Assembly: GCA_023129715.1 (NCBI GenBank)
Contig: JAGMBO010000010.1
Coordinates: 1 to 64,000 of the forward strand
DNA from: Candidatus Eiseniibacteriota bacterium
Lineage (GTDB): Bacteria > Eisenbacteria > RBG-16-71-46 > CAIMUX01 > WJJG01
DNA length: 64,000 bases
Direction: 5' to 3'
A program made the position numbers and the translations under genes. Positions 26,948 to 46,331 of the stretch are shown here, piece after piece (position 1 is the first letter of the stretch; each line of letters begins with the position of its first letter). The notes beneath the pieces are model-generated. The model ran no database searches and had not been told where the DNA came from. It was given only the letters and a program-made list of their open reading frames with translations.

Positions 26948-28265
26948 TTCCGACACGGCGGGACTCCACGATGCCCTCGAGCGTGAACGCCGGCGCAACG
27001 AGCTGCTCAGCCGGGTGGCTCTCGAACTCGCCCGGACTCTGCGGCTCGAGGAAATCCTGCCGCTGATGATCACGCTCCTGCGCGAGCTGATCGACTTCGA
27101 TGCCGTCAGCATCTACCTCCATCCCCCGGGGAGCGACGAGCTCAACTGGTTCTACGGCCTCGGCTACCCGTCGGGATCGGAGGAGCAGGTGCGTCTGAAG
27201 CTGGGGCAGGGGGCGGTTGGCTGGACGGCCCAGCACGAGGAGCCGCTGATCCTACCCGATGCGGTCGCCGATCCCCGCTATCTCGCCGCGCGTCCCGAGA
27301 CCCGCTCGGAGATGATCGTGCCCTTGATCGTCCAGGGGCAACTCGTCGGCATCTTCAATCTCGAGAGCGACCGACAGGACGCCTTTCATCAGCACGACCT
27401 CGAGTTGCTCCAGGCCTTCGGCCTCCATGGCGGGATCGCGATTCAACGCGCTTGGCTGCATGCCGAGGGCGTGGAGAAGCGCCGCCTGGAGGAGGAGTTG
27501 GCGATCGCCCGCCGCATCCAGTTGCGCCTGCTTCCGGCGCGCGCACCTGAGATCCCGGGACTCGATCTGGCCGCCTTCAATCATCCCTCGCAGGAGGTGA
27601 GCGGCGACCTCTACGACTTCGTGACGATTACTTCCGATCAGGTCGGCCTGATCATTGGCGATGTCGCCGGCAAGGGAGTCGCCGCGGGCCTGCTGATGGC
27701 GACGTTTCGCGCGAGTCTACGGGCCGAGATTCGCAACAACTATGCGATCTCTGTGATTCTGGGCAAGGTGAATCGCCTGATGTGGGAGAGCGTCGAGGAG
27801 GCCGCCTTCGTCACCGCCGTCTATGGGGTCCTCGATTGGCCGCGCCGCCGATTGACCTACTCGAATGCCGGACACAACCCGCCGATCTTGCTGCGGGCGG
27901 GCGGGCGCGTGGAGTTGCTCGAGGTGGGCGGCCCCTTGTTGGGCCCCTTTCCCGACGCCACGTATTGCGAGGCCTTCATCGATCTCGAACCTGGGGATGT
28001 GCTGGTTTGTTACACGGATGGGATCACCGAGGCGTGCTCGCCGGAAGGTGAGATGTTCGGTCTCGAGCGGCTGACGGCGCTCGTGCAGGCGCGTCCGCCG
28101 GACGAGCCGGCTCGCGTGCTCTGCGAGCGGATCCTGGAGGCGGTCCGGGGTCATAGCCACGAAGTGCACGCCGCCGACGATCTGACCGCCGTCGTCGCAC
28201 GCGTGTTGTCGGAGCGGGATCAGGGGCCCGTCCGAGATGCAGGTGGGGAACCGCCGCTGGTGTGA
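26937..28265 (+). CDS. GAF-domain PP2C/SpoIIE serine phosphatase
   Basis: A 442-residue signalling phosphatase. A coiled-coil start is followed by a GAF sensor domain at about residues 20-175 (IDFDAVSIYLHPPGS, LKLGQGAVGWTAQ, MIVPLIVQGQLVGIFNLESD). A short helical linker (EEELAIARRIQLRLLPARAP) leads to the PP2C-like domain, which has SGDLYDF, IGDVAGKGVAAGLLMATF, YSNAGHNPPILL, VCYTDGITEA and ADDLTAVV with its metal-binding Asp residues. Such RsbU-like phosphatases act on anti-sigma antagonists. No RsbW or RsbV partner is in the window. It overlaps the upstream amidohydrolase by 11 bases. Confidence 0.93.
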   Translation: MRTDSDTAGLHDALERERRRNELLSRVALELARTLRLEEILPLMITLLRELIDFDAVSIYLHPPGSDELNWFYGLGYPSGSEEQVRLKLGQGAVGWTAQHEEPLILPDAVADPRYLAARPETRSEMIVPLIVQGQLVGIFNLESDRQDAFHQHDLELLQAFGLHGGIAIQRAWLHAEGVEKRRLEEELAIARRIQLRLLPARAPEIPGLDLAAFNHPSQEVSGDLYDFVTITSDQVGLIIGDVAGKGVAAGLLMATFRASLRAEIRNNYAISVILGKVNRLMWESVEEAAFVTAVYGVLDWPRRRLTYSNAGHNPPILLRAGGRVELLEVGGPLLGPFPDATYCEAFIDLEPGDVLVCYTDGITEACSPEGEMFGLERLTALVQARPPDEPARVLCERILEAVRGHSHEVHAADDLTAVVARVLSERDQGPVRDAGGEPPLV

Positions 28266-28333
28266 GTGGTCGCGGGTGCGCGGCTGCCCAGAAACCGATT
28301 GAACCGCCCTGGGGCGGATGCGAGGATACGCGT

Positions 28334-28768
28334 ATGTTCAAGCAAGAGGGAAGAGACGAGAAGCGGCCCCGCGGAGACGAATCAGGATCAACGACCATTG
28401 TAGGCAGCGGGACAAGCTTCAATGGCGTGCTCAAGGTCAATGGTTCGTTGCGCGTCGACGGCGAGGTCGAGGGACAGGTCTACGTGACCCAGAGCCTGGT
28501 GGTCGGAGCAACCGGTGTGCTCAAGGCGGAGATCGTCACCGATTCGGCGGTGATCACCGGGCGGGTCAGCGGGCGGATCCAGGCCAAGGGCAAGGTCGAG
28601 CTGCAGAAGGGCTCGCGCCTGGAGGGGGATGTCCACGCCCACAGCTTCCAGATCGAGGATGGCGCCTTCTTCCAGGGCAACTGCGCCATGGGGGAGGCCG
28701 CTGGGTCTGCGGGGCGCGGCGCGGCCGCCGGCCGCCCGGGTGAGAAGCTGAAAGTCGTCGGTCCCTAG
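28334..28768 (+). CDS. bactofilin
   Basis: A 144-residue bactofilin, a polymer-forming cytoskeletal protein that builds right-handed beta-helix filaments at the membrane. The DUF583 core spans about residues 20-115 with six-residue-spaced Gly/Val rungs: TTIVGSGTSFNGVLKVNGSL, RVDGEVEGQVYVTQ, LKAEIVTDSAVITGRVSGRI and QKGSRLEGDVHAHSFQIEDG. A flexible Ala/Gly-rich tail ends it. Bactofilins position cell-wall enzymes, often M23 peptidases; none is adjacent. It lies 68 bases after the phosphatase gene and 26 bases before rhomboid. Confidence 0.93.
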   Translation: MFKQEGRDEKRPRGDESGSTTIVGSGTSFNGVLKVNGSLRVDGEVEGQVYVTQSLVVGATGVLKAEIVTDSAVITGRVSGRIQAKGKVELQKGSRLEGDVHAHSFQIEDGAFFQGNCAMGEAAGSAGRGAAAGRPGEKLKVVGP

Positions 28769-28794
28769 CAGCCGGCGGGAAGGGAACCTGGGGC

Positions 28795-29568
28795 GTGGCG
28801 AACGGCTACTACCGAATGGGCGGCGGCGGGCTCGGTTTGCCCGAGGGTGTGAAGTACCTGCTCATCTGGAACGGCATCCTCTATCTACTCCAGCATTTCA
28901 TCCTGGCCGGCGACTACGGGCTCCTGCGCGGCCTGACGGTCGGCGTCGGCAGCCTTCCGGCCGGTATTCCGGTCGGTGATCTCGAGAGCCATTTCCGCAC
29001 GATTCCGACCCTCTTCGGCACGGTCCCCGTGCTTTTCTGGCAGAAGGGATTCATCTGGCAGGTCGCCACCTACATGTTCCTGCACGGCGGCCTGTTTCAC
29101 ATTCTCTTCAACATGTTCGCGCTCTGGATGTTCGGCTGTGAGCTGGAGCGCATGTGGGGCACGCGGAAGTTCATCGGCTACTACTTCTTCACCGGCATCG
29201 GCGCGGGCCTCTTGACCGTCGTGCTGACCCCCCATGGGTATGCGCCGACGATCGGCGCCTCGGGTGCGGTCTATGGCATCTTGCTTGCCTATGCGCTCTA
29301 TTTCCCCGAGCGGCGCATCCTCCTCTATTTTCTGATTCCGATTCCGGTGCGAATCTTCGTTGTGATTATCGGCTTGATCGCCCTGATCAACTCGCTCGGC
29401 ACGAGCGGGAGCGGCATCGCTCACATCGCCCACTTGGGCGGCCTCGTCTTCGGCTGGGCCTACCTGCGCGGCTGGGGTCCGGGGAACATCCTGCGGCGGT
29501 GGTTGTGGCGCCGCCGTCGGCGCGGCATGCGTGTGGTCGATTTCACCCGCGATGACGACGACCGCTGA
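28795..29568 (+). CDS. rhomboid family intramembrane serine protease
   Basis: A 257-residue rhomboid. About six membrane segments are visible, with the catalytic Ser in IGASGAVYGILLAYAL (G-A-S-G) and the catalytic His in IAHIAHLGGLVFGWAY. The loop-1 signature E-R-M-W-G-T and N-terminal TYMFLHGGLFHILFNMFALW are also present. A basic, Arg-rich tail follows the last helix (RRWLWRRRRRGMR), probably cytoplasmic. The start is GTG at 28795 after a GGGAACCTGGGG stretch. Substrates are unknown. It ends the plus-strand run; strong hairpins follow. Confidence 0.92.
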   Translation: MANGYYRMGGGGLGLPEGVKYLLIWNGILYLLQHFILAGDYGLLRGLTVGVGSLPAGIPVGDLESHFRTIPTLFGTVPVLFWQKGFIWQVATYMFLHGGLFHILFNMFALWMFGCELERMWGTRKFIGYYFFTGIGAGLLTVVLTPHGYAPTIGASGAVYGILLAYALYFPERRILLYFLIPIPVRIFVVIIGLIALINSLGTSGSGIAHIAHLGGLVFGWAYLRGWGPGNILRRWLWRRRRRGMRVVDFTRDDDDR

Positions 29569-29772: not shown

Positions 29773-31785
29773 TTAGTCGACGCGGATCATCCGGCGTGCC
29801 TCGCTGCGCCCATCGACGGTGAGGCGGTAGAAGTAGATCCCGGCGCCGGAAGGCAGGCCGAGCTCATTGGCGCCGTTCCACTCGACACTGTGCTGGCCGG
29901 CCTTGACGGCCTCTCCCTTGATCAGGTGGCGCACGCAGGCGCCGGTCACATCGTAGATGCCGATGCTGACCGCATCGGCATCCTCGGCGAGACGGAACTG
30001 GAAGGTCGTCGCGCGATGCGACGGATTCGGCCGGGCGGGGAAGAGGCTGATCGAGGATGCACCGGGCATCAACCCGTCGACCGCCCCGCCGTAGTAGAGC
30101 TGCTCGATGTCGTCGCTGAAGAACGGGATCACCTTATAGGTGTTGTACTCGTAGGTGAGGATCCCACTGACGAGCACACTGTCGCCGACCGTCGGGTGGA
30201 AGCCGTGTAGGTCACCGAAGTCGTTCCAATCGTGCTCGAAGTCGACGCGGCAGGTGTCGGGCTCGCCGGCGCCGGTGCCGGGCAGCAGCCACCACTCGCC
30301 GTAGATGCCCTCACCGGCGACGCTGTCGAGGTAACAGGGAGCGTTGAGGCGCACGCGCGCATGCTCCCAGACCTCGGGGGCATTGTCGTCGGGCGGGTTG
30401 CCGTCATTGGGGATTGCGTCGTAGAGGATGTCTGCGGCGGTGACGTCGGTGGTGACCACCGGCTGGGTCGCCGCGCCCAGGTTCTCGACCAGTTGCACGC
30501 CGGAGCGCCAGCTCAGATTGGTCTGTCCATAGTACTCCTCGATCTCACCGGCGACCTTGAGGCTGTCGCCGACGGCGAGGTCGCCCACGGCGCTGACCCG
30601 CGAGTAGAGATGCTTGAAGGGACCGGCATCGCCCTCCTGCAGGAAGTAGTAGCGGCCGTCGATGGCGGTCACGCGTCCGGCCGTGGTGACGACCACGCCG
30701 TCATAGAGCGATGCATCGACGGTGAGATCGGCGACGTGCTGCAGCGTGTAGAGCGAGGTGATCCCCAGGGTGAAGTCGTATTGGGCCGGCGACATCATGA
30801 GGCTGCCCTGTTCGGCGAGGACCTCCTCGACGTAGATGATATCGATCAGGCCGGGGGTCTGCGGGGTGGTCGTCAAACGCACGAAGCGATGGTCGCTGTC
30901 GTTGCGCTCGGCGGACGTGACCGTGAGGCCCGAGTCGAACGTGTAGTTGGCGGGATCCTCGGCGGTGTATTCATCGACCGCAATCGCAAACCAGACGTCG
31001 ATGTGAGTGTTGTCGTAGGCCCAGACGCCGCGCAGCTCTGGCTTGCAATCCATGCCTAAGTCATCGGAGCAGTTGCGCGGGGCGATCTTGAATTCACCAT
31101 GGTCATAGTTGAGCACTCCCTGGACAAAGGTCAACTCGGTACCCTCGACAGGCTGGGAGTAGTCGAAGTCGCCACCGGGGTCGGCCGAGTGGTGCATGAC
31201 CTTGATCGAATCGCCGAGAGTGGTGACGAAGTCGGTAAACAGGAACCAGTCGTCGTACTCGTTCATCTCGCCGGCGTAGAGGGAGGCGTCGTCACGGTCG
31301 ACGCGGACGAGCACGCACTCGTAAGCCTCGGCGTAGGTAGCCGTCGGCCCATTGATCTCGGTCATCAGCGAATTCACCGGGGTCGGCAGCGTACCCTGGC
31401 CGACGACCTCGAAGCCGCAATCGACGGTCGAACCACAGGGGGAGTGGTCGATGTCGATCTCGCTCAGGTCGTAGTACTCCTCGTACATGCCGGTCACGTC
31501 GACCAGGTCTCCGCGCTGGACATCACCGAGGTGGGTATTGCCCGTGTAGACCCAGATGCCCGAGTACTGATACTGGTAGCCGGGATGATGGTCGACCTCC
31601 GGAACCTGGATGAAGAACCCCCAGAATCCGGTGCCGGTGACGACGCAGTTGCGCACCGTGACCTCGTCGCCCGGGTCGTGGAGCTCAGTCTGGATGTTAT
31701 AGATCGTGGTCTCGACAGCGCTCGCTGCGCCGGTGCCCAGGGCGAGCAGCAGTCCCAAGGCGACACAGATGCCAATCGACTTCAT
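29773..31785 (-). CDS. secreted protein with OB-fold-like modules and sorting domain
   Basis: A 670-residue exported protein with signal MKSIGICVALGLLLALGTGA and cleavage near ASA-V. At least three modules share the pattern of T-V-x-G-x-V, a G-x-(Y/F)-x-(L/F)-Q strand, and G-D-x-(V/L)-x-V-x-G-x-(I/Y/M)-x-E-Y. Examples are GDLVDVTGMYEEYYDLSEID and GDSLKVAGEIEEYYGQTNL. They look like OB-fold (DUF5689-like) domains of extracellular nucleases and surface proteins. An Ig-like segment (residues about 255-345) sits between them. The last 95 residues form a FlgD-like sorting domain (FPARPNPSHRATTFQF, DVTGACVRHLIKG, GAGIYFYRLTVDG). The ATG at 31785 follows GGAGGGGTCC. It has no nearby operon partner. 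Confidence 0.78.
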   Translation of the reverse strand: MKSIGICVALGLLLALGTGAASAVETTIYNIQTELHDPGDEVTVRNCVVTGTGFWGFFIQVPEVDHHPGYQYQYSGIWVYTGNTHLGDVQRGDLVDVTGMYEEYYDLSEIDIDHSPCGSTVDCGFEVVGQGTLPTPVNSLMTEINGPTATYAEAYECVLVRVDRDDASLYAGEMNEYDDWFLFTDFVTTLGDSIKVMHHSADPGGDFDYSQPVEGTELTFVQGVLNYDHGEFKIAPRNCSDDLGMDCKPELRGVWAYDNTHIDVWFAIAVDEYTAEDPANYTFDSGLTVTSAERNDSDHRFVRLTTTPQTPGLIDIIYVEEVLAEQGSLMMSPAQYDFTLGITSLYTLQHVADLTVDASLYDGVVVTTAGRVTAIDGRYYFLQEGDAGPFKHLYSRVSAVGDLAVGDSLKVAGEIEEYYGQTNLSWRSGVQLVENLGAATQPVVTTDVTAADILYDAIPNDGNPPDDNAPEVWEHARVRLNAPCYLDSVAGEGIYGEWWLLPGTGAGEPDTCRVDFEHDWNDFGDLHGFHPTVGDSVLVSGILTYEYNTYKVIPFFSDDIEQLYYGGAVDGLMPGASSISLFPARPNPSHRATTFQFRLAEDADAVSIGIYDVTGACVRHLIKGEAVKAGQHSVEWNGANELGLPSGAGIYFYRLTVDGRSEARRMIRVD

Positions 31786-32094
31786 GGGTGGACCCCTCCA
31801 TGGTGGATGATTGGAACCGGCATGTGACTTCTGGTGGGCCTGCGCGATGTCATGGCCCAACATTGCACAACTCCGCGTAAGTATACGCTCGATAGGCATC
31901 TGCGTCAAATCGTCGCGGACGCGCCGGAGGGGAGGCGTGGAACAGTAGAGATGCTATCTTGCACACCGGCAGCCAGTTAGCGCGACAAGAGCCCCTGGAT
32001 GCTAGGGCTGCTGAGCGGCTGGGGCTCCCTGGCGGCTGGGGCTTCCAAGCGGCTGGGGTTTCTAAGCGGTTGAGGTCTTCAGTGGCCACGGCTT
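31786..32094. other. intergenic region with 17-bp repeats
   Basis: About 309 bases separate two minus-strand genes. The only structure I see is the 17-bp tandem array at 32013-32080. The promoter of the downstream secreted-protein gene (starting at 31785 on the minus strand) should lie here, but no clear -10/-35 pair stands out. Confidence 0.5.
32013..32080. repeat. 17-bp tandem repeat, four copies
   Basis: Four consecutive 17-base units begin GCGGCTGGGG (units 1-3) or GCGGTTGAGG (unit 4) and drift progressively toward the lipoprotein gene. A weak fifth copy may precede them at 31996. The array lies 14 bases beyond the stop codon of the minus-strand lipoprotein gene. Confidence 0.85.
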
Positions 32095-33612
32095 CTAGTT
32101 GGATTCGAACAGACTCCGCATCAGCGCCTCGACCGCTGCCTCGGGTTCCTCGTCGGCCCTGAAGCGCGTCAGCAAGGTCGTGAAGATGGCGATTTTTCCG
32201 AGGCCTTTCTCGGCCAGAGCGCCGACATAAAGCGTGTCGGTTGCGTTCTCGGGAACCAGGGTGGTGTCGACGGTGCCGGGGCCGACCCAGAGCAGGGGCT
32301 CGAGGCTGTCGGAGATCGCGAAGCACTCGGTCTTCGGCATCCGCGCGGTGATCACCAGCGAGTCGACGCCGCCAAAGCGCTCCCCGCAGTAGAGCGCGGT
32401 GCGGGGGTCAAGGACCAGGTTGCTGACGACATCCTGATCGACCGGATAGGTGTAGACCCGGCTGATCCCGAAGACGTCCTCGTAGAATCCGCGACTCAAG
32501 CCGCCACCGGTTCCCAAGACGTTGAGGCCGGTCAGGAGCAGCTCGCCGCCCGAACGGACATAGGGCTCGAGGGCACCCTGGGCGCGCTCGAGCCCCAGGC
32601 GGAAGGCCTCGTCCTGGTTGGCGCTGCCCGAGTAGGTCTTGATCCCGTACCAGAGGACGCCCTTGAAGAGGTCGAAGATCGGCAGGACCTCCTGACTGCT
32701 GCGGAAGGGCCCCTCGACCTCGACATCGTAGATGTGATAGTTGCTGCCGAAGAGCGAATTCATCCGTCCGCGCCAGAACGCGTCGTCGATTCGCGCGGGA
32801 CTGACCGTCGGCCAGGCGTTGTCGATCAGGAGATACTCGCCGGCGGGGGCGACGACTTCCCAGCTCCAGGAGATCGTATCCGACCCGGTGCGCGCCCGAT
32901 CGAAGACCTGGAGGTAGATCGTGCGGGGACCGAGGCGGCCCTGGAAATGCTCGGGGAAGAAGGCGCCGACCGTGTCTTCACGAACGGTGATCTGCGAGAG
33001 CGCCGGGTCCTCGCCCGGCTGCGTGTCGAGCCACAGGCGGGTCTCGGCGATCGTCTCGCGACCATCGTAGTCCTCCGGAGTCCAGGCGAAGGAGATCGCC
33101 GGCAGACTCGGATGGGCGAAGGTCGGGTGGCGCGTCGTGTCGGTCCAGCTCACCAGGGGTGGTTGGTTGTAGAGGCTGAAGAGCTGCGTGACGGGATCGG
33201 GGTCGGCGAGGAGATCGTTGTCGATCGCGCGCAGGCTGAAGGTACGTTCGATGTAGCTGCCCTCCACCGGCACGTCGAACGTATCGGCGCCCGTGCTGGT
33301 GAACACCCAGCTCGAATCCTCCCACCAGAGACTGTCGTCCGGCTCCGGGTTCCAGGGGCCGTCCCAGTGATAGGCGAAGCCGATGACCTCGCCGTCGCGG
33401 TCGGTGCCGTCCCAGCGCAGGACAATGTGGTAGGAGACGGTGTTGAGGCTCTCACCCATGACGGAGAGATAGGTCAAGGGCGGCTGGTTGCCCGGCGCCG
33501 CCCGTTCGTCCACCGCACAGCTCGCCAGCAGGACCATTCCGGCAACGGCCAGACCTGCCAGTGCCCTGCGCCCGGCGACGCGCGAACAGGGTTTCATCCA
33601 GCTCCCGTGCAT
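32095..33612 (-). CDS. surface lipoprotein of unknown function, last gene of the surface operon
   Basis: A 505-residue lipoprotein with signal MKPCSRVAGRRALAGLAVAG and lipobox LLASC. Residues 35-270 look like tandem beta-sandwich (Ig/fibronectin-like) domains (SYHIVLRWDGTDRDGEVIGF, RTFSLRAIDNDLLADPDPVT). From about 255 a second region contains EYLLIDNAWPTVSPARIDDA, YVRSGGELLLTGLNVLGTG and GLGKIAIFTTLLTRFR. These suggest a Rossmann-like, glutamine-amidotransferase-type alpha/beta fold without an identifiable catalytic Cys. The ATG at 33612 with GAGG upstream is preferred; an ATG at 33684 overlaps the previous stop (ATGA) but would give an implausibly long signal. I do not assign a function. 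Confidence 0.75.
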   Translation of the reverse strand: MHGSWMKPCSRVAGRRALAGLAVAGMVLLASCAVDERAAPGNQPPLTYLSVMGESLNTVSYHIVLRWDGTDRDGEVIGFAYHWDGPWNPEPDDSLWWEDSSWVFTSTGADTFDVPVEGSYIERTFSLRAIDNDLLADPDPVTQLFSLYNQPPLVSWTDTTRHPTFAHPSLPAISFAWTPEDYDGRETIAETRLWLDTQPGEDPALSQITVREDTVGAFFPEHFQGRLGPRTIYLQVFDRARTGSDTISWSWEVVAPAGEYLLIDNAWPTVSPARIDDAFWRGRMNSLFGSNYHIYDVEVEGPFRSSQEVLPIFDLFKGVLWYGIKTYSGSANQDEAFRLGLERAQGALEPYVRSGGELLLTGLNVLGTGGGLSRGFYEDVFGISRVYTYPVDQDVVSNLVLDPRTALYCGERFGGVDSLVITARMPKTECFAISDSLEPLLWVGPGTVDTTLVPENATDTLYVGALAEKGLGKIAIFTTLLTRFRADEEPEAAVEALMRSLFESN

Positions 33613-33680
33613 GGTTGCCTCGCTCTGCCTCCGCTGTCCACCGGCGCATCCCGGGCGCCACCGGCGGATCGTTTCATCAA

Positions 33681-35747
33681 TCATTTCATGATCAGGAACT
33701 TGCCATGTTCCACGTCGCCGGTCTCGAGATTCTCGACGCTAAAGACGTAGAGCCCGGTGGCGATCGCCTGATCCTTGCGCGTCGTCAAATCCCAGGCGGC
33801 CATGTTGCCCGAGAGTTCGGGGATGTCGCCGGCCGGGAAATTGGGATCGTCGGGATCGTAGATCCCCCGCACATCGGTAGCGCCATAGAAGCGGGCATCG
33901 AAATCGATCGTCTTCACCAGGTCGCCGGCGAGCGTGTAGATGCGGATCTTGCAGCGGGGGGGCAGGCCGGCGAACCAGAGGTAGCGGTCGCGCAGTTGCT
34001 CTTCGTCCCAGGCGGCGTCGCCACGGTAGGGGTTGGGGAAGACGATCACCTTGCCCTCGGGCGTTTCGCCGAGCTGCGGACCGGGGATCGTAAAGACGCG
34101 ATTTTGGGCGAGCCCCGATTCGAGCGGATCGATCTCCAGCGTGCCGCGATCGTAGCTCGTCACCGCGACCCAGTGCTTGAAGCCGTCGCGCACACCGTCG
34201 ATGTCGAAGCGGAAGCGGTAGACGGTCGTATCCCCATCGACGACTTCGACGAGCGGCTCGTCCGGCGTGATCGCCTCGAGTCCGGTGTCGAAGAAGAGCG
34301 AGTCGCGCAGGTCGAAGTCACCGAGCTGGCGGAAGCCGACCGACTTGCCCTCGTCACTCATATAGATGCGGAACCCCTCGAAGTCCTGCTCACCGCTTTC
34401 CAGATCGTAGACGTAGAGGGGTGAGTCGTCCCACCAGAGGCGGATGCGCGAGTGGTAGTTCTCGATCTTCAGGCGCGGTGGTGGGGGGGGCAGTGGGATC
34501 TTGAAGCCATGGTCATAGGCGAACTGCGCCCAGCCGGCATTGAAGGCCATATCTTGACTGGCATTGCGCGGGGGGCTCGCGTCGGGCGAGGGGGTTCCCC
34601 CGATGAAGGCATAGGAGACGGTCACCGTGTCGCCCGGCAGCATGAACCAGTGTTCCACGCCGACGCTGTCGAGAAAGCTCTCGGTTCCGAGCGGACCGAC
34701 CGAGAGGAGGGTCACCGGATCTTCGTTGGGCCCCTCGACACCGCCGGTGGGGTCGCGGTCGCCGTTGCCCAGCGCCAGGTAGCGCCCGACGTCGAGATGG
34801 GGTGTCTCGGGGTTGGTGCCGGCCGGATCCCAGTCCCACATGTTGAATGAGACGCGCTTGTTGGCGAGCGTGTCGGGGGTCGTCCCCAGCAGCATGTAGC
34901 CGCCCCAGGAAGGGCAATTGCCCCGGTACTCGCGCCAGTGGTGCTCGGTGATCAGACGCAGGGAATCGACATAGGCGATGTCCTTGTTGCGGAACCAGCC
35001 CGAGGGGGGCCACTCGTCGTAGGCCCCCTTCCAGCCTGAGGCGAGCTCGGCATAGAGCCCGGCATAGATATCGAAGATCGGATGGGTCGGGTGGTTGTTG
35101 ATGATGTAGAAGTTGATCAGAATGATCGCGTTGTAGGGTTCATGGGCATACTGCATGACTTCCTGCACGACCCGCACGTGCAGGGGACGGTGGAGCGATC
35201 CCGGGTAGGTGCGCTCATCGTGGTACTCGCAGATCAGGTCTTCGTCGGATTTCGCATCCAGACTGAACGATTCGTGCAGGGGTTGCAGCGAGAGCACGCT
35301 GAATTCCCCGTAGACGGGATAGAACTCGCTCTCGGTGTCGCCTGAGCCGCCATAGTAGCCGTCGAGGGTGGTCGTCGTCGTTAGCGTCTCGGCCAGGGCG
35401 ATCAAGGCCGAGTCACTGAAGAGCCCGGCGACCCAGATCCCGGCGCGCACGAGATGCTCTTCATCCTCGCCGAGGGGATACTCGAAGGAGGGATCCCGCG
35501 AGGCCATGTTGTTGCCGAGGAATCCATTGTTGAAGATCGTCAGGCCCGCGCTGCTGGCGGGGTAGCGCCCGGTGCCGGTCACCCGGTAAACCGTGCGGAC
35601 GGTCGTATCCTGAGCGACCGGGGAACTCGTGGCGGGGGCGCGATGGTCATGGCGGACCAGGCCGTTGGCCACCGGCAGGATGAGAATTGCCGCCAAGCTC
35701 GACAGGAGCAGTCCGCGCAGTTGGGTGTGTAACCTCATTCTCGACAT
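33681..35747 (-). CDS. large secreted protein with FlgD-like sorting domain
   Basis: A 688-residue exported protein. The signal is MSRMRLHTQLRGLLLSSLAA plus ILILPVANG. The central part is rich in aromatic and acidic residues, without a family I recognise. Recurrent features are NNGFLGNN, YPLGEDEEHLVRAGIWVAGL, a Pro run (PLPPPPPR) near residue 420 and fibronectin-like stretches (RIRLWWDDSPLYVYD, FEGFRIYMSDEGKSVGFRQL). The C-terminal 120 residues form a FlgD-like sorting domain with VIVFPNPYRGDAAWDEEQLR, CKIRIYTLAGDLVKTIDFDA, MAAWDLTTRKDQAIATGLYV and a final H-G-K-F-L-I-M-K. Its gene follows the NHL lipoprotein gene after nine bases in a five-gene operon that also encodes a PorV-like protein, the natural partner of such cargo. 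Confidence 0.8.
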   Translation of the reverse strand: MSRMRLHTQLRGLLLSSLAAILILPVANGLVRHDHRAPATSSPVAQDTTVRTVYRVTGTGRYPASSAGLTIFNNGFLGNNMASRDPSFEYPLGEDEEHLVRAGIWVAGLFSDSALIALAETLTTTTTLDGYYGGSGDTESEFYPVYGEFSVLSLQPLHESFSLDAKSDEDLICEYHDERTYPGSLHRPLHVRVVQEVMQYAHEPYNAIILINFYIINNHPTHPIFDIYAGLYAELASGWKGAYDEWPPSGWFRNKDIAYVDSLRLITEHHWREYRGNCPSWGGYMLLGTTPDTLANKRVSFNMWDWDPAGTNPETPHLDVGRYLALGNGDRDPTGGVEGPNEDPVTLLSVGPLGTESFLDSVGVEHWFMLPGDTVTVSYAFIGGTPSPDASPPRNASQDMAFNAGWAQFAYDHGFKIPLPPPPPRLKIENYHSRIRLWWDDSPLYVYDLESGEQDFEGFRIYMSDEGKSVGFRQLGDFDLRDSLFFDTGLEAITPDEPLVEVVDGDTTVYRFRFDIDGVRDGFKHWVAVTSYDRGTLEIDPLESGLAQNRVFTIPGPQLGETPEGKVIVFPNPYRGDAAWDEEQLRDRYLWFAGLPPRCKIRIYTLAGDLVKTIDFDARFYGATDVRGIYDPDDPNFPAGDIPELSGNMAAWDLTTRKDQAIATGLYVFSVENLETGDVEHGKFLIMK

Positions 35748-35756
35748 CTCCGCCGC

Positions 35757-36740
35757 CTACTGCGATGAGAGCTCGAAGAGCACGATGCGGTTGCTATCGG
35801 GCTGACTGACGAAAACCAAGTCGCCCTCGTCGCCGACCGCGAGATGGCTCGGGGCGGTCAGCGGGGGATCGGGGTGGCTGCGCGCCGGCCAGTAGACCGT
35901 GTCGGCGAAGGCGCCATTGGCCTGAAAGCGCAGCACCCGATCATGCCCCGTATCGGTGATATAGACATACTCGGCAAATGGATCGATGGCCACATCCCGC
36001 GGTGTGCTGAGCAACCCTTCCTCCCAGCCGATCGGTTCGGGATGGGCCGGATAGGGCAGGCTGGTCGTGTCGGGCAGGATCCGCTGGACCCAGTCCTTAC
36101 CGCTGTCGGAGACCCACAAGAAGGCGCCCGCGTAGGTGAGCCCGCGGGGATCGGTGACGTAGCCGATGCCGCTGCCCTCTTCGGCGACGACGCGCAGTGG
36201 GTGCCCCCAGCGGTCATAGGAACGGATCTCGTCGCTGGTGGAGTCGGCGACGTAGATGTGCAAGCGCTCGTCGGCGGCCACGCCCGAAAGCCCCTCCCAG
36301 AGCGTGTCGGAGAAGCTGTGCAGCAGCGGTCCGCCCCAGCGATAGTAGATCTTGCAGCGCATGTCCCCGGGGTCGAGGACGATGACATAGACCGAGTCGC
36401 CCCGTGCGACCGTCGTCAACTGCGTCGGGCGGATGAGGCCCTCGAAGGCGGTGGCCATATCGGCGCTGGTCGGGGCGGTCTTGCGCGTCGTCAGGTAAGT
36501 CGCGATGCGGCTCTCTTCCTCGATGACATAGAGATAGATGCCCTCAACGGCCAGATCGCTCGGCGCCGGCAGCGTCCACTCGGCCTTGAAGTTGAACTTA
36601 CCCGGTAGCGGCGTGCGGAACTCGAGCTCCGGCTGCGGCGGGAGTTCGATCTGCTGACCGCAGGCCGTGGCCAGCAGGGCGGAGAGCGCCACGAAGAGCA
36701 CCCGGCGCAGCCGGCGGTGGTTCTCGTGGGCGCGGTCCAT
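35757..36740 (-). CDS. NHL-repeat beta-propeller lipoprotein
   Basis: A 327-residue lipoprotein with lipobox LATAC after a basic, hydrophobic signal (RRVLFVALSALLATAC). The body is a beta-propeller of NHL-type blades: PSDLAVEGIYLYVIEE, SGVAADERLHIYVADSTSDE, DPRGLTYAGAFLWVSDSGKD, TPRDVAIDPFAEYVYITDTG and PSHLAVGDEGDLVFVSQPDS. Each has the (D/P)-x-x-(L/V)-A-V start and a V-x-D-(S/T) turn. Such propellers bind ligands or partners in the envelope. The ATG at 36740 follows AAGGAGAGGC by one base; an in-frame start at 36761 is possible. It sits 14 bases after the PorV-like gene and 9 before the secreted protein gene. Confidence 0.85.
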   Translation of the reverse strand: MDRAHENHRRLRRVLFVALSALLATACGQQIELPPQPELEFRTPLPGKFNFKAEWTLPAPSDLAVEGIYLYVIEEESRIATYLTTRKTAPTSADMATAFEGLIRPTQLTTVARGDSVYVIVLDPGDMRCKIYYRWGGPLLHSFSDTLWEGLSGVAADERLHIYVADSTSDEIRSYDRWGHPLRVVAEEGSGIGYVTDPRGLTYAGAFLWVSDSGKDWVQRILPDTTSLPYPAHPEPIGWEEGLLSTPRDVAIDPFAEYVYITDTGHDRVLRFQANGAFADTVYWPARSHPDPPLTAPSHLAVGDEGDLVFVSQPDSNRIVLFELSSQ

Positions 36741-36754
36741 GCCTCTCCTTCCGC

Positions 36755-37795
36755 CTACCATGAGTAGTGCAAGCCCCAGCGGTGAATCGATCCGAAGTAG
36801 CCGCCGTCGGCGTACGCGTAATCGACATCGATCCGCGTACTACCGAACCGCATCCGCACGCCGCAGCCGGCATGCAGCTTGAGCGCATCGGCGGAAAAGT
36901 CGTAGCCCGCCCGCACGGCAAAGGCGCGCTCCATGGTCAGCTCGGCGCCGGCGCGCAGAACCTCGCGGTTGTCGGCCGGGTGGCCCACCTCGATCGAGGT
37001 CACCAGCTTCCACCGCTTGCTCTGATAGGGATCGATGCTGAAGCCGAAGCGGAAGAAGGTCGGTGGACTGAAACTCGTGTAACGGATTTCGGCATCGCTG
37101 CGCCGGCTCTCGAATTCCCCTGACGGCCGTAGGTCGGGACCGAAATTGCTGAGAGTAATGCCCATGCGGGTGTCGCGATAGCCGACGAAGTAGATCGCTC
37201 CGGCGTCGATCAGCCAGGTGGTCAGTTCGGTGCCGTCGAGTTCGGGCGCAAAGGCTTCGTGGAACAGCTTTGCGGCGACGCCGAAGCTCAGCTTGTCGGT
37301 CAGTGCCCGCGAGGCTCCCAGCGTGGCCGTCCAGGTCGAGTAGGTGAATTCGCGTCCGGTGCCCAGGGGGTGGAACTCGTCGGTCTCATCCATGGTGGCG
37401 CTCAGTCCTGCGAGACCAATGCCGATCGCCCCGCGAATCGGGGCGAAGGGCAGACAGACGACCGCCGCACCGGCGGGGATCCCAGCGGTATAGTCGACAC
37501 CGCAGAGGAGCACGCCGCGCTCACCCTCGATGCCCAGGCCGGCCGGATTCCAGAGCAGCGCGGCCGGCCCGGAGGCATACGCGCACACCGCGCCCCCCAT
37601 CCCGCTGCCGCGGGGGTCGAGCGAGACCTTCAGGAAAGAGCCCGAGGAAGTGCCTACCCGCTGCCCGCCGAGATCGGTCTGGGCGGCGGCGGGAGCGGCG
37701 GCGAGCAGGAGCCCCGCGCCCAGCAGTCCGGCCAGGACCCGGACGCGCGCCGGCGGCCTTCCCCGGGTCGGAGCTCTGTGAACGCTACCATTCAT
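36755..37795 (-). CDS. PorV/PorQ-family (UPF0164) outer-membrane protein
   Basis: A 346-residue outer-membrane beta-barrel of the PorV/UPF0164 group. It has a signal peptide (VLAGLLGAGLLLAAAPAAA-Q) and the conserved early block VGTSSGSFLKVSLDPRGSGM followed by GGAVCAYASGPAALLWNPAG, the hallmark of this family. Later features are alternating beta-strands with DLRPSG, VRAGYDFSADALKLHAGCGV and RIDVDYAYADGGYFGSIHRW, ending in aromatic residues (LHYSW). In Bacteroidetes PorV shuttles type IX cargo to the attachment complex, and PorQ has a similar fold. Its ATG overlaps the end of the TonB receptor gene by 11 bases. The protein encoded two genes downstream carries the type of sorting domain PorV recognises. 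Confidence 0.87.
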   Translation of the reverse strand: MNGSVHRAPTRGRPPARVRVLAGLLGAGLLLAAAPAAAQTDLGGQRVGTSSGSFLKVSLDPRGSGMGGAVCAYASGPAALLWNPAGLGIEGERGVLLCGVDYTAGIPAGAAVVCLPFAPIRGAIGIGLAGLSATMDETDEFHPLGTGREFTYSTWTATLGASRALTDKLSFGVAAKLFHEAFAPELDGTELTTWLIDAGAIYFVGYRDTRMGITLSNFGPDLRPSGEFESRRSDAEIRYTSFSPPTFFRFGFSIDPYQSKRWKLVTSIEVGHPADNREVLRAGAELTMERAFAVRAGYDFSADALKLHAGCGVRMRFGSTRIDVDYAYADGGYFGSIHRWGLHYSW

Positions 37796-40700
37796 AGCGG
37801 ATTCCCACGCGGAAGGTCCGCGGCTTCGAGTAGTAGCTCGGACTGGCCAATTGATAGTAGGAGGTCTGGTAGTCGGCGAGGATGCCTCCGGCCACGTCGG
37901 CGGCATAGGCGTCGACCAAGATCTGATCGGGATCCTCGCCGTCGTGGTTGCGGCGGTAGTTCTCCATGTAGGTCTCGACGGCGCGCGGCACCTCCTCGGC
38001 GAGATAGGCGCGGTAGCTGTTGGGGTTCTCCCACGGATCGATCAGGCTGCCCTCGCCGGGAACATACTTCGCTCCGGTGACCCAGTCGAAGCTCAGCGGA
38101 GTCTGGTAGTTGAAGACATTGAACACCTGGAAGGAGAGCTCGAAGCGCCGGGTGGCGAGTCGGAACCCCTTGGCCAGTGAGAGATCGCAGGTTATGTCGC
38201 TCGGCCCGCTGCGTGAATAGGCGTCGCCGACGTCTTCACCGAATGCGCTCTTCGGTGTATAGGGGCGACCCGAGCGGACCATGAAATAGAGCTTGGCGCT
38301 GAGATCCTGGGGCCAGCGCAAGCCGAGCCAATGCGGCGGCTCCTCGTCTTCCCTGACGCGCAGATTGAGTTGCGCCGTCAGCTTGTGGGGGCGGTGCCAC
38401 CACAAGAACTCCTCGCCCAGCACCGGCTCGCGCGAATCCCCGCCCGTCTCCTGGATCAGCTTCGACTTGTTGGCGTCCGAGCTCTTCCCCTTGGATGTCG
38501 AGAACGTGTAGGAGAGCGAACCCGAAACGTAGTTCTGGCGGTTGCGGTGCAGGCTGACTTCGATCCCGCGGGAGCGGGCATAGTCCATGTTCCAGTACAT
38601 GAAGAATTCGCTGCGTCGCGTCTCGCGTTCCCGGAGTTCGAGCCGCGTCGTCGTTGGATAGTCGTACATATCTTTCCAGAAGACGCTCAGCTTGGCGGCC
38701 AGGATGTCGGTGAACTGGTACTCACCGCCGACTTCGTAGGAGACCGAGATCTGGGGATTGAGCGCCGGGTTGCCGATGCGGGGATATTCCTCGCCCGACT
38801 GCGAGCTCGACTTGGCATAGACGAAGTAGTAGGGGGGGCGTTGGCTGTAGTGGCCGTAGTTGAAGAAGATGTGCGCCCGTTGATTGATGGGGAAGGAAAC
38901 CGCCAGGCGCGGACTCAGATGGCCCTTGAAACGGTGGCCGAAGAGCTCGTGGGTCTCGTTGTAGAACTTCTCGCGCAAGGCCTGCGTCATGTGGGGGCCG
39001 GTCTGCAGATCGAGAGCCCGGCGGATCTGATGGCCGGGGAACCAATAATCATAGGTTACCCCGGCGTTGATCGTCATCCCCTCGTGCTCGAAGTGGTCCT
39101 GGATGAAGAAATTGCCCGCGTTGGGCGTGACCTGAAAGAGGTCGTATTCGTCGCCCAAGGGCAGGCTTCGATCATCGGGCGTGCCCTGGCGCGAGGTGTC
39201 GGGATCGATGTAGACCGTGTGGGCGTTCAGCGCCATGTATTGGACGTCGTGGTACTCTGCATTGAGGCCCCATTCGACATTGTGGGCCCCGAGCACGTGC
39301 GACCATTCGTTGGCCAAGCCCCAGACGATGACGAAGCGATCGCGCCAGTCCTGAGCATCTCCGACGTCGACGAAGTAGGGGGTGTTCTCGATGCCGGAAT
39401 CATCGGGAATCTCATTGTCTCGCGAGGCGTCGTAGTCGCTGTAGTCCTTCCCGTCGACATCCTTGTGCTGCCCGGAGTAGTGGCGCCACAGGCGCACCGT
39501 CGTCCGGGTGTTGAGTCCCAGGCTGCGATTCCAGATCAGACTGAGGATGTTGACGTCGTTGCTCACCGTGTAGTGATGATCCAGGCGCGGCGCCCACGCC
39601 CAGGGGAAGTTGCTCACATTGCGATCGATGTCTCCGATGTCGGGGTTGCCCCAGTCCTGGGTGATGCTCAGTGTCTTGGTCCAGGAAAGAGAGAGCTTGT
39701 TGTTGGCATCCGCCTTCCAGGCAGTCTTGAAGAGCGCCCGCCAGCGGTTCTCGGCCAGGGGGGCGAAGAACTGCCCGTAACTGAAGGTGTGCCCGAGGAT
39801 CTCATCGCTGAGCGAGGGGGAGAGGTGCGGACTGCCCTTCACGTCGCGAATGCTCGGGAGATAGCCGTTGGAGAGCTCGGCCGAGAGGCTTGCGTAGAAG
39901 GTGACGTCGGGGCGCTCGTCGCCGAAGCGCTCGAGAATGGGGGCCAGCAGCACGTTGGGCCCGCCCAGCTCGAGATTGCCCTGGTGGACGTTGTGGGCGC
40001 CGACCAGCAGATCGCTTGCGTAGCTCACCGATCCGTGCCAGCGCTGGCTGCCCTCCTTGAGTCGGGTCTCGACGACGCCCGACATCGCCTGGCTGTAGCG
40101 GGCGCTGAACCCGCCGGTCATCACCTTGACGTCGGTGGCCGACTGAGCCGCAACTTCCCTGCCCATCGATTGGCCGGAGAGCAGGTCCCGCACCTTGACC
40201 CCGTCGATGACGAAGAGGCTCTCCTCGGCGCGCCCGCCGCGGAAGTGCAGCCCGCGCTCGTCGCGGACGATGCCCGGCTGTTGCTCGACGATCGCATCGA
40301 GCGTCGGCGATTGGGTGATCATCGATTGGAGGTCGTGGGTACTCAGGTCGTGGGAGGTCGAGGTCTTGTGGATATCGATCAGGGGACGCGCGGCGCGGAT
40401 CTCGATCGTCTCCAGCGAGGTGACGACCGTCGGGGTGAGGCGCAGGGTCAGACTGACCCCCTCGTCGGCTACAACGGTCAGGCGTCGCTCGACGGCCTCG
40501 TACCCCATGAAGGTGACGCGCAGCAGGTGCTCGCCGGCGGGCACCGCTTCCAACGTGAAGGTGCCGTCCTCATGCGAGATCGTTCCCAGCGAGGTGCCGG
40601 CCAGAACGACGTTGGCCGGGGAAAGCGGTCGGCCGGTCTGCTCGGCGAGGATGCGCCCGGTGATCACTCCGGTCGCGGTCGGATCGTCCGCCTGGGATGG

Positions 40701-40841
40701 GGCGGGGGGTGCGGCGATCACGATCAGGACGAGCGCCAAGAGGAACGCTCGGCCCCAGCGTGCCCACCTAGGCGGCTTGATCGGTGCCGCCGGTCGGGAA
40801 GTGGGGACGCCCGCCCACGCGTCCCGGCATCGCATGCTCAT
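37785..40841 (-). CDS. TonB-dependent receptor with carboxypeptidase-like domain
   Basis: A 1018-residue outer-membrane receptor, first gene of the five-gene surface operon. After a long basic N-region and signal core (FLLALVLIVIAAPPAPSQA) comes a carboxypeptidase-regulatory-like domain (GVITGRILAEQTGRPLSPAN, ISHEDGTFTLEAVPAGEHLL). The plug domain has SLETIEIRAARPLIDI, SPTLDAIVEQQPGIV, HFRGGRAEESLFVIDGVKVR and SGVVETRLKEG. A long beta-barrel follows with FRVGIRYEW at the very end, as in SusC/TBDT families. It lacks a clear TonB box. The start at 40841 follows AAGGAAGG; a GTG at 40865 is possible. No SusD-like gene is adjacent, and the substrate is unknown. Confidence 0.9.
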   Translation of the reverse strand: MSMRCRDAWAGVPTSRPAAPIKPPRWARWGRAFLLALVLIVIAAPPAPSQADDPTATGVITGRILAEQTGRPLSPANVVLAGTSLGTISHEDGTFTLEAVPAGEHLLRVTFMGYEAVERRLTVVADEGVSLTLRLTPTVVTSLETIEIRAARPLIDIHKTSTSHDLSTHDLQSMITQSPTLDAIVEQQPGIVRDERGLHFRGGRAEESLFVIDGVKVRDLLSGQSMGREVAAQSATDVKVMTGGFSARYSQAMSGVVETRLKEGSQRWHGSVSYASDLLVGAHNVHQGNLELGGPNVLLAPILERFGDERPDVTFYASLSAELSNGYLPSIRDVKGSPHLSPSLSDEILGHTFSYGQFFAPLAENRWRALFKTAWKADANNKLSLSWTKTLSITQDWGNPDIGDIDRNVSNFPWAWAPRLDHHYTVSNDVNILSLIWNRSLGLNTRTTVRLWRHYSGQHKDVDGKDYSDYDASRDNEIPDDSGIENTPYFVDVGDAQDWRDRFVIVWGLANEWSHVLGAHNVEWGLNAEYHDVQYMALNAHTVYIDPDTSRQGTPDDRSLPLGDEYDLFQVTPNAGNFFIQDHFEHEGMTINAGVTYDYWFPGHQIRRALDLQTGPHMTQALREKFYNETHELFGHRFKGHLSPRLAVSFPINQRAHIFFNYGHYSQRPPYYFVYAKSSSQSGEEYPRIGNPALNPQISVSYEVGGEYQFTDILAAKLSVFWKDMYDYPTTTRLELRERETRRSEFFMYWNMDYARSRGIEVSLHRNRQNYVSGSLSYTFSTSKGKSSDANKSKLIQETGGDSREPVLGEEFLWWHRPHKLTAQLNLRVREDEEPPHWLGLRWPQDLSAKLYFMVRSGRPYTPKSAFGEDVGDAYSRSGPSDITCDLSLAKGFRLATRRFELSFQVFNVFNYQTPLSFDWVTGAKYVPGEGSLIDPWENPNSYRAYLAEEVPRAVETYMENYRRNHDGEDPDQILVDAYAADVAGGILADYQTSYYQLASPSYYSKPRTFRVGIRYEW

Positions 40842-40937
40842 CGCCTCGGCCTTCCTTGCCGTCACGCGGTGTTCTGGAATTCCCGCCGAACCGTAGCAAC
40901 CAGCTGCGGGATGGTCAAGTGCAAGCCCTCGTTCTGC

Positions 40938-41372
40938 TCAGGGACCTGCGGCCGGTGGCTGGAAGCTGACGAAGGCATCGGGCATCAGTTCCCCGATGGT
41001 GAAGCGCTGGGGTGTTCCCGTCCCCCGCTGGAGGAGCAGTGGAGCCTCGGGGGCCAGCTCGTGCCAGACCTGTAGGCACTGACCGCAGGGGTGGGCGCCG
41101 GCGGCGGCCGGCACCCAGAGCACGAGCGTGACAACGGTGGCATCCGTCGCCGCCCGCGCCGCGCACAGGGCGATCTGCTCGGCGCAGACCGAGAGACCGG
41201 TCGCGGTTTCCAGACGGACGGCGATGCCGGGAAACAGCTTCCCATCGGCGGTTATGGCGACGGCCCCGGTGCGCTCGCGGGGAGGGCCGGCCGCGCGGCG
41301 CGCATGGTCGCGGGCCATCCGCAGGTGCTCCTGATCACTCGTGCCGATGGGGCTCGGGTCATGAATCGCCAT
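40938..41372 (-). CDS. cytidine deaminase-like protein
   Basis: A 144-residue protein of the cytidine deaminase fold. The catalytic zinc motif is split as usual: SVCAEQIALCAAR (C-A-E) at about residue 70 and HPCGQCLQV (P-C-x-x-C) at about residue 107. The N-terminal substrate-binding segment usually seen before them (F-x-V-G-A, N-x-E-N) is poorly conserved: here it reads TGAVAITADGKLFPGIAVRL, then ETATG. So it may act on a different nucleoside or base. The ATG at 41372 follows GGAG by seven bases and overlaps the end of dus by 14 bases. Confidence 0.8.
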   Translation of the reverse strand: MAIHDPSPIGTSDQEHLRMARDHARRAAGPPRERTGAVAITADGKLFPGIAVRLETATGLSVCAEQIALCAARAATDATVVTLVLWVPAAAGAHPCGQCLQVWHELAPEAPLLLQRGTGTPQRFTIGELMPDAFVSFQPPAAGP

Positions 41373-42342
41373 CTCGTGTCTCCTGCACCGCCTCACCGTC
41401 GGCCAGCACACGGACCACGGCGGCGATCGATTCCGGTGTCATCAGCGCGGCGCGTAGGCGCGCCGCGCCGGGAAGGTGTTTCAGATACCCGCGGTAGTGC
41501 TTGCGCATCTCGATGACCGCGCGCCGCTCGCCCTTCTCCTCGGCCGCCTCGCGCAGATGGACGAGCATGACGGCGACGCGCTCGGCGTAGGATGGGGGGG
41601 GCGGAGAAACACCCGTGCGAAGATAATGACGTGTTCGGGCAAAGATCCAAGGGTTTCCCATCGCCCCCCGTCCAATCATCACCGCATCGCAGCCCGTCTC
41701 CCGAAACATCCGCTCCGCGTCGGCCGGCTCCCGGACATCGCCGTTGCCGATCACCGGAAGCGAAACCGCGCGCTTGACGCGGGCGATCCAACTCCAGTCG
41801 GCAGTCCCCCGGAAGCGTTGGCAGCGGGTGCGGGCGTGAACCGTGATTGCCGCCACACCGGCCCGCTCGAGACGGGCGGCGACATCGAGCACGTTGATCG
41901 TACCCATGTCCCAGCCGAGACGCACTTTGGCGGTGACGGGCAGGTCGACCGCGGCGACCACGGCGCGGGCCATCTCCTCCAAGAGGTCGGGCGTGCGCAA
42001 CAGTCCTGCGCCGCCCCCCTTGCCGGCCACCTTGCGCGCGGGACAGCCGAAGTTGAGATCGACGATCTCCGGTTCGGCCTGCTGGGCGAGACGCGCCGCG
42101 GCGACGACCGAGTCGATCCGGCTGCCGAAGACCTGGATTGCGATGGGATGCTCGGCGGGCAGGATCCGCAGCTTGGCGAAGCTCTTGGCCGCCCCGTGCA
42201 CGAGTCCTTCCGCCGAGACGAACTCGCTGAAGACCAGATCGGCGCCATGCCGGCGGGCGAGGCGCCGGAAGGGGCCGTCGGTGATGTCCTCGAGAGGGGC
42301 TAACACCAGGGGATGGTCACCATCGAGACCGGGAAGTGCCAT
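41359..42342 (-). CDS. tRNA-dihydrouridine synthase (DusB-like)
   Basis: A 327-residue flavin enzyme that reduces uridine to dihydrouridine in tRNA. The TIM-barrel start is VLAPLEDITDGPFRRLARR; then come IQVFGSR, the family block VDLNFGCPARKVAGKGGGAG with the catalytic Cys, VTAKVRLGW, ITVHARTRCQRFRGTADW, VIGNGDV and VMIGRGAMGNPWIF. A C-terminal helical region with HYRGYLKHLPGA follows. Most Dus proteins have M-x-(G/D)-x-T, which reads L-E-D-I-T here. The ATG at 42342 is five bases after the peptidase stop, so the M42 peptidase, dus and cda genes look like one operon. Confidence 0.92.
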   Translation of the reverse strand: MALPGLDGDHPLVLAPLEDITDGPFRRLARRHGADLVFSEFVSAEGLVHGAAKSFAKLRILPAEHPIAIQVFGSRIDSVVAAARLAQQAEPEIVDLNFGCPARKVAGKGGGAGLLRTPDLLEEMARAVVAAVDLPVTAKVRLGWDMGTINVLDVAARLERAGVAAITVHARTRCQRFRGTADWSWIARVKRAVSLPVIGNGDVREPADAERMFRETGCDAVMIGRGAMGNPWIFARTRHYLRTGVSPPPPSYAERVAVMLVHLREAAEEKGERRAVIEMRKHYRGYLKHLPGAARLRAALMTPESIAAVVRVLADGEAVQETRDGDS

Positions 42343-44960: not shown

Positions 44961-46331
44961 ATGAAGACGATCATCGAGCCGTTCAAGATCAAGAGCGTCG
45001 AACCGATCCGCATGACGACTCGTGAGGAACGCGAGCAGGTCCTGGCCGCAGCCGGCTACAACCTCTTCAGCGTGCGGGCCGAGGACGTGCTGATCGACTT
45101 GCTGACCGACAGCGGAACTTCCAGCATGAGCTCCGAGCAATGGGCCGCCATGATGCGCGGCGATGAGTCCTACGCGGGCGCGCGCTCTTTTTTCCGTTTC
45201 GAGGCCCAGGTGCGGGAGATCACCGGTTTCACCCATATCATTCCGGCGCATCAGGGGCGGGCGGCCGAGAGGATCCTCTTCAACGTGCTTCATCGCGAAG
45301 GAGGCATCTATCTCGGCAACACGCACTTCGACACAACCCGGGCCAACATCGAGTATCTCGGCGATGAGGCGATCGACTTGCCGATTCCCGAAGGCACCGT
45401 TCCCTCGCAGTTGCACCCCTTCAAGGGCAACATCGATCTCGACCGCCTGGCCTCCGATCTGCGCCGCCACGCCGGCGCGGTGCGTGCCGTGATCATGACG
45501 GTGACCAACAATTCCGGCGGTGGCCAGCCGGTGAGCATGGCCAATCTGCGGGAGGCCTCGCGGCTGGCTCACGCGCAGGGCACCCTGCTGGTGCTCGACT
45601 CCTGCCGTTTCGCGGAGAACGCCTACTTCATCAAGCAGCGTGAGCCGGAGTATGCGGAGAAGAGCATTCTCGAGATCGCCCAGGAGATGTTCAGCTACGC
45701 CGATGCCACGACGATGAGCGCGAAGAAAGATGGTCTTGCCAACATTGGCGGTTTCTTGGCGTGCAGTGACGACGAGATCGCCGCCGCCGCGCGAAATCTG
45801 CTGATTCTGACCGAAGGGTTCCCGACCTACGGGGGGTTGGCCGGGCGGGACCTCGAGGCGATCGCGCAAGGGTTGCGCGAGGTGATGGAAGAGGACTACC
45901 TGCGCTATCGCATCCGTTCGGTGGAGTACTTCTGCGAGAGCTTGCAGGCGGCCGGCGTGCCGATGATCCAGCCTCCCGGAGGCCACGCCGTTTTCCTCGA
46001 TGCCGGCAGCTTCCTGCCCCAGGTTCCCCCAGCCGAGTTTCCGGGGCAGGTGCTGGCCAACGAACTCTATCTCGCCGGCGGCATCCGGGGTGTGGAGATC
46101 GGCAGTGTCATGTTCGGCAAGGAGGACCCGGCGACCGGCACGGTGCAGCATCCTCCCATGGAGCTGGTCCGCCTCGCGATCCCGCGCCGGGTCTACACCC
46201 AGAGTCATGTCGACTACGCGGCGGAGGTGATCACCGCCGTGCACGCTGAGCGCGAAAGGCTGCGCGGACTGAAGATGACCTATCAGGCGCCGTTTCTGCG
46301 ACACTTCACCGCCCGCTTCGCCCCGCTCTGA
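44961..46331 (+). CDS. tryptophanase-like beta-eliminating lyase
   Basis: A 456-residue PLP enzyme of the tryptophanase/tyrosine phenol-lyase family, which cleave Trp or Tyr to indole or phenol plus pyruvate and ammonia. Family blocks are in place: IDLLTDSGTSSMSSEQWAAM, PAHQGRAAERILF, NNSGGGQPVSMANLREASRL, LDSCRFAENAYFIKQREPEY, TMSAKKDGLANIGG (PLP Lys) and PTYGGLAGRDLEAIAQGL. Two diagnostic sites look tryptophanase-like: FDTTR has Asp where tyrosine phenol-lyase has Thr, and GVEIGS lacks that enzyme's substrate-binding Arg (M-E-R-G). The length equals that of tyrosine phenol-lyase. I favour tryptophanase but not with certainty. GGAGGAGCTG precedes the ATG. Confidence 0.88.
   Translation: MKTIIEPFKIKSVEPIRMTTREEREQVLAAAGYNLFSVRAEDVLIDLLTDSGTSSMSSEQWAAMMRGDESYAGARSFFRFEAQVREITGFTHIIPAHQGRAAERILFNVLHREGGIYLGNTHFDTTRANIEYLGDEAIDLPIPEGTVPSQLHPFKGNIDLDRLASDLRRHAGAVRAVIMTVTNNSGGGQPVSMANLREASRLAHAQGTLLVLDSCRFAENAYFIKQREPEYAEKSILEIAQEMFSYADATTMSAKKDGLANIGGFLACSDDEIAAAARNLLILTEGFPTYGGLAGRDLEAIAQGLREVMEEDYLRYRIRSVEYFCESLQAAGVPMIQPPGGHAVFLDAGSFLPQVPPAEFPGQVLANELYLAGGIRGVEIGSVMFGKEDPATGTVQHPPMELVRLAIPRRVYTQSHVDYAAEVITAVHAERERLRGLKMTYQAPFLRHFTARFAPL

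Follow-up and report, generated by a model that had tools for sequence, protein, structure and literature searches.

A conserved set of surface-protein genes in uncultured bacteria as a probable uptake operon for the SPU microcompartment

Bacterial microcompartments of the SPU type have been reported in 26 bacterial phyla and share two signature enzymes, RpiB and DeoC, which occur in all SPU loci; shell proteins and aldehyde dehydrogenase are also encoded in SPU loci. They have been proposed to metabolize the products of DNA degradation, or DNA detritus (PMC8217296; PMC4207490), but as far as we could find it was not addressed how the substrate reaches them. In the SusC/SusD-type TonB loci, the polysaccharide utilization loci of the Bacteroidota, a TonB receptor with a CarboxypepD_reg domain is encoded with surface lipoproteins and catabolic enzymes. 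Two described arrangements in type IX secretion, moreover, pair an outer-membrane barrel with a particular surface protein: PorQ anchors PorZ in Porphyromonas gingivalis (PMC5562754), and PorP/SprF shuttles are encoded next to their cognate type B cargo in Flavobacterium johnsoniae (PMC12618676; PMC9143113). Here we describe a conserved gene set of uncultured bacteria that has elements of each of these systems.

The starting point was a window of 64,000 nucleotides (positions 1 to 64,000 of contig JAGMBO010000010.1, assembly GCA_023129715.1, Candidatus Eiseniibacteriota bacterium). An earlier note, made from the sequence alone, had described five minus-strand genes for envelope or exported proteins, with an 11-bp overlap followed by spacings of 14, 9 and 68 bases. 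This observation held exactly, as the ATG starts and the stops of the five genes (A to E, Table 1) reproduce the overlap and the spacings. The note did not include a sixth gene of the set, F, nor the cytidine-deaminase-like gene upstream of A, both of which are on the same strand. The labels L, G and C used below are our own for loci, genomes and contigs, and families of the class are given by our own numbers.

Table 1. Positions of the operon genes, their sub-features and other features observed in the window and in related loci (coordinates refer to the window unless a locus is named)
Feature	Coordinates	Strand	Description and support
A	37785..40841	-	TonB-dependent receptor (GTG start at 40865 possible); CarboxypepD_reg N-terminal domain, plug, barrel; ortholog in most D-anchored loci
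TonB-box-like motif of A	40392..40415	-	LETIEIRA, between N-terminal domain and plug; consensus ExVxVxAERPLV-like over 62 A proteins; assigned by motif only
B	36755..37795	-	PorV/PorQ-family outer-membrane barrel, overlaps A by 11 bp
C	35757..36740	-	NHL-repeat lipoprotein (PF01436); lipobox Cys invariant in 26 sequences
D	33681..35747	-	688-aa secreted protein; N-terminal beta-rich domain, FN3-like domain, divergent C-terminal sorting domain; AlphaFold2 pLDDT 86
Sorting-type domain of D	33684..34070	-	C-terminal; insertion absent from the generic type A domain; PorZ/PorU and type A domain homology
E	32095..33612	-	Lipoprotein with two FN3-like domains and a GATase1-like domain (pLDDT 85); lipobox Cys invariant in 29 sequences; start at 33684 possible, with a 4-bp ATGA overlap with D
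F	29773..31785	-	Exported protein with OB-fold-like (ExeM/NucH N-terminal type) repeats and a standard type A sorting domain
Promoter-like sequence ahead of F	31880..31908	-	Sigma-70-like, TTGACG-17-TATACT; one of 2 found, 1.7 expected by chance, hence weak
Cytidine-deaminase-like gene	40938..41411	-	CAE and PCxxC motifs; ends 96 bp upstream of A; PF00383 34 bits (cut-off 25), TIGR01354 51.5 bits (cut-off 113.65)
DusB gene	41359..42342	-	tRNA-dihydrouridine synthase, 353 bits (cut-off 293); overlaps the deaminase gene; probably same transcript
Genes adjoining F	26937-29568		GAF/phosphatase-like regulator, bactofilin and rhomboid genes; relatives of some recur in L063, L066, L068 and L072
Tryptophanase or tyrosine phenol-lyase-like gene	44961-46331	+	Assigned by eye
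DUF7901 protein	1660-3216		With a type A sorting domain
Paralogous A-D-B module	L098:7241-13411		Own genome (G000), contig C101; followed by a GWxTD-domain-like protein
SPU-type shell locus	L171:7145-13987		Own genome, contig C115; linker of its RpiB-DeoC fusion holds a possible encapsulation helix
PorV-like proteins near shell loci	L172:3567-4547, L173:4095-5129, L176:15484-16515, L178:9013-9954		Assigned by eye; a few kb from the shell locus in several families; the own-genome PorV2-like gene (L102) has similar neighbours
Sorting-domain protein directly upstream of A	L043:2881-4809		DNase I-like N-terminal motif, not confirmed by Pfam or NCBIfam
Split A gene	L041:1233-4064		Interrupted by an in-frame stop

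The family assignments were made by profile searches against Pfam and NCBIfam. A has CarbopepD_reg_2, an OMP_b-brl barrel (PF14905) above its cut-off and a Plug match below the Plug cut-off (19.7 versus 23.9 bits), but conserved plug motifs and the TonB-box-like motif over 62 relatives support its identity as a TonB-dependent receptor. B belongs to the PorV/PorQ family (NF033709, 129 bits, cut-off 90) and is closer to PorQ (51 bits, cut-off 220) than to PorV (25 bits, cut-off 250) or PorV2 (23 bits, cut-off 325), although it is an equivalog of none of these. D had no Pfam or NCBIfam hit of its own, no sorting-domain model reached its cut-off, and a PDB sequence search with D alone gave no hit. 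Nevertheless, its C-terminal domain is homologous to type A sorting domains of the type IX system (hhalign 97%, E 4e-11), and PorZ and PorU are among the fold matches of the model. The predicted N-terminal domain only weakly resembles sugar-handling folds (aldose epimerase, TM 0.41 by target). F passes the sorting-domain cut-off (TIGR04183, 26.9 bits, cut-off 23) and its domain is a generic type A domain (hhalign 99.9%), while F also resembles the N-terminal region of the ExeM/NucH nucleases (NF033681, 61 bits, below the cut-off of 300). Weak OB-fold hits were found in two relatives of F, but no recognized nuclease domain. A terminator scan of the region gave nothing useful.

The genome encodes the type IX translocon SprA, a PorU sortase beside a PorV-family gene on contig C133, six PorV-family proteins over the cut-off and 45 matches to the sorting-domain model at E <= 0.001. 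A scan of named genomes returned a single relative, a MAG labelled Candidatus Eisenbacteria.

The note had named a lack of conservation of the gene order in relatives as the outcome that would overturn its reading, and this is not what we observed. Loci were found with D alone, after which the other genes were looked for. The order A-B-C-D-E recurs, far beyond chance, in 30 loci (a few cut by contig ends), most of them from the class and six from outside it, and F follows in many of these, although several lack it. In 12 other loci the set is rearranged as D-F-E-A-B, half of them with C after B, and the position of F inside the cluster shows that it belongs to the set. A minimal A-D-B arrangement occurs in 21 loci, one of them the paralogue in the window's own genome. 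In three loci of family 10 (L040, L042, L078) a second D precedes A. A search of 385 genomes with the D profile gave 117 genomes with a match at 1e-20, a number that includes paralogues.

The genomic context provides a functional association. We compared the flanking genes of the three types of loci with profiles of RpiB, DeoC, adenosine deaminase and cytidine deaminase. In 19 of the 30 A-B-C-D-E loci at least one of these genes lies upstream of A (or of the extra D), nearly all on its strand, whereas none flanks the 12 D-F-E-A-B(-C) or the 21 A-D-B loci (Fisher p 9e-9). One positive locus, L127, also has a deaminase-like hit downstream on the other strand, and in family 9 an amidohydrolase is upstream as well. 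Representative DeoC, RpiB and adenosine deaminase proteins pass the NCBIfam equivalog cut-offs. Several of the 30 loci end at a contig edge, and of the 25 with at least 1 kb upstream 19 are positive. Five loci with at least 2.5 kb upstream (L044, L069, L125, L126, L137) lack these genes, and L043 has only a nuclease-like gene that was suggested by motif and a home-made profile but was not confirmed by Pfam or NCBIfam, and was therefore not used. In the window's own family only the deaminase-like gene, which is below the equivalog cut-off, is linked. Pyrimidine nucleoside phosphorylase, tried as a co-distributed marker, does not discriminate and does not track the operon.

Two of these enzymes, RpiB and DeoC, are those of the SPU microcompartment. 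The window's genome has an SPU-type locus on contig C115 (L171), which encodes an RpiB-DeoC fusion (pfam02502 and pfam01791), BMC and EutN shell proteins, aldehyde dehydrogenase and a class II aldolase. In families 1, 2 and 8 RpiB and DeoC are in the shell locus. In families 3, 4, 5, 6, 9 and 10, however, the shell loci examined have aldehyde dehydrogenase and shell genes but neither enzyme, and RpiB, with DeoC in families 3, 4 and 6, is upstream of A instead; DeoC was not located in families 5, 9 and 10. The shell locus of family 9 also has PduL and a PduS-like protein. Most RpiB proteins of the operon and two DeoC proteins begin with an amphipathic, encapsulation-peptide-like helix that resembles that of the aldehyde dehydrogenases in the shell loci. 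Against shuffled sequences the moment is clear in about half of them; the shared motif is the stronger argument.

Moreover, the presence of the operon tracks that of the shell genes. Among 47 genomes of the class, 30 have both D and shell genes, 3 have D only (G002, G003, G008), 3 have shell genes only (G001, G014, G042) and 11 have neither (p 6e-6). The six discordant genomes are all less complete, and in genomes at least 90% complete the counts are 18, 0, 0 and 8 (p 6e-7). These counts are not phylogenetically independent, as seven of the eight genomes with neither belong to one family and the eighth (G030) is a separate loss inside family 10, so that few independent events are involved. Outside the class five of the six genomes with A-B-C-D-E have shell genes, G172 being the exception.

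The interpretation given in the earlier note, that a dedicated receptor, a PorV-like barrel, its cargo and two lipoproteins are packed in one transcript and could form an import or surface-assembly machine, is partly supported. The packaging is supported, and of the two functions import is favoured, considering the TonB-box-like motif of A and the finding that 9 of the 21 A-D-B loci have ExbB-family genes nearby, eight ExbD and six a TonB-like gene (representatives were confirmed). Since none were noted near the A-B-C-D-E loci, this evidence is by relationship. The note's set should be corrected to six genes, its barrel is closer to PorQ than to PorV, the sorting domain of D is divergent while F carries the standard one, and the nucleoside catabolism and microcompartment context, which is decisive, was not seen.

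We consider it the most probable reading, with moderate confidence, that the genes build an outer-membrane uptake system for nucleic-acid breakdown products, nucleosides or short oligonucleotides, that feeds an SPU-type microcompartment encoded elsewhere in the genome. In this view Sec would export all six proteins, and D and F would cross the outer membrane through the SprA translocon. B would collect D by its divergent C-terminal domain and hold it uncleaved on the surface, in the way PorQ holds PorZ or SprF-type shuttles hold their cognate cargo, whereas F would use the general PorV/PorU route. D, F and the lipoproteins C and E would capture or process the substrate next to A, which would import it using TonB energy. 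In the cytoplasm nucleosides would be deaminated by the cytidine or adenosine deaminase encoded just upstream and phosphorolysed, after which the pentose phosphates would enter the microcompartment, where RpiB and DeoC would act, DeoC producing acetaldehyde and triose phosphate, and the shell's aldehyde dehydrogenase would act on the aldehyde. The gene set, its conservation, the protein families, the linkage and the co-occurrence are established by sequence, whereas the use of SprA, the pairing of B and D, the substrate, the import by A and the entry of the product into the microcompartment are inferred; neither a substrate and its transport nor any interaction was tested. It also has to be considered that nucleosides alone are small enough for porins. 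More tentatively, B may be permanently assigned to one surface protein, in a dedicated TonB-powered nucleic-acid or nucleoside importer that co-evolves with the microcompartment and partly encodes its cargo, which would constitute an uptake-to-organelle pathway for DNA detritus that was not described before.

An alternative that we regard as unlikely, but that survives best, is a TonB-dependent uptake system for another substrate, such as a glycan, siderophore or peptide, with the nucleoside and microcompartment genes as an inherited neighbourhood without functional link. The weak sugar-handling resemblance of D, the absence of nucleoside genes from the two other types of loci and the behaviour of the pyrimidine phosphorylase are in line with it. 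However, four different nucleoside or pentose enzymes are linked in different families, and operon and shell genes are present or absent together in the genomes at least 90% complete. Still less likely is a surface-assembly or attachment complex, in which B and D are a PorQ-PorZ-like pair that processes or anchors other type IX cargo, with A and the lipoproteins as structural partners. The better match of B to PorQ and the match of the C-terminal domain of D to PorZ in 31 of 42 members point in this direction, but the genome has a separate PorU next to another PorV-family gene, the PorZ match is confined to the sorting domain and is shown by many other proteins of this genome, and neither the TonB receptor nor the nucleoside genes would be explained. 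A display module for F-type nuclease-like proteins that release nucleotides outside the cell, with import by other means, rests on the ExeM/NucH-like region of F alone and is the least likely, as F has the general sorting domain and no confirmed catalytic domain, and several A-B-C-D-E loci lack F.

The constituent families are known; their combination, and its tie to the SPU microcompartment, was not found in the literature searched. Literature searches for a TonB-linked PorV operon, for TonB-dependent nucleoside uptake and for an SPU uptake system found no such system, in a collection that covered few subscription papers. The operon gives a concrete candidate for the front end of the SPU microcompartment and a direct test of its function. 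It also shows PorV/PorQ-family barrels paired with single surface proteins and TonB receptors in many lineages, which suggests a role for type IX shuttles in nutrient uptake as well as in bulk secretion.

We regard the operon as a variant of TonB-dependent nutrient uptake. Like the SusC/SusD-type loci it combines a TonB receptor carrying a CarboxypepD_reg domain with surface lipoproteins and linked catabolic enzymes, but A is far below the SusC/RagA model cut-off (52 versus 368 bits), the genome has no SusD, and a PorV-family barrel and sorting-domain proteins are found instead. As in the PorQ-PorZ pair, a PorV/PorQ-family barrel is encoded with a surface protein whose C-terminal domain is PorZ-like, yet D matches PorZ only in that domain (NF052228, 25 bits or less for the members scanned singly, cut-off 260), and thus is not PorZ, and the pair is linked to a TonB receptor. 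With the PorP/SprF shuttles it shares a dedicated shuttle next to its cargo, although the shuttle is of the PorV/PorQ family and the cargo domain is related to type A. Finally, the shell proteins, RpiB, DeoC and aldehyde dehydrogenase are those of the SPU loci, for which we found no outer-membrane uptake arm in the literature examined, whereas here the signature enzymes can be split off to the uptake operon.
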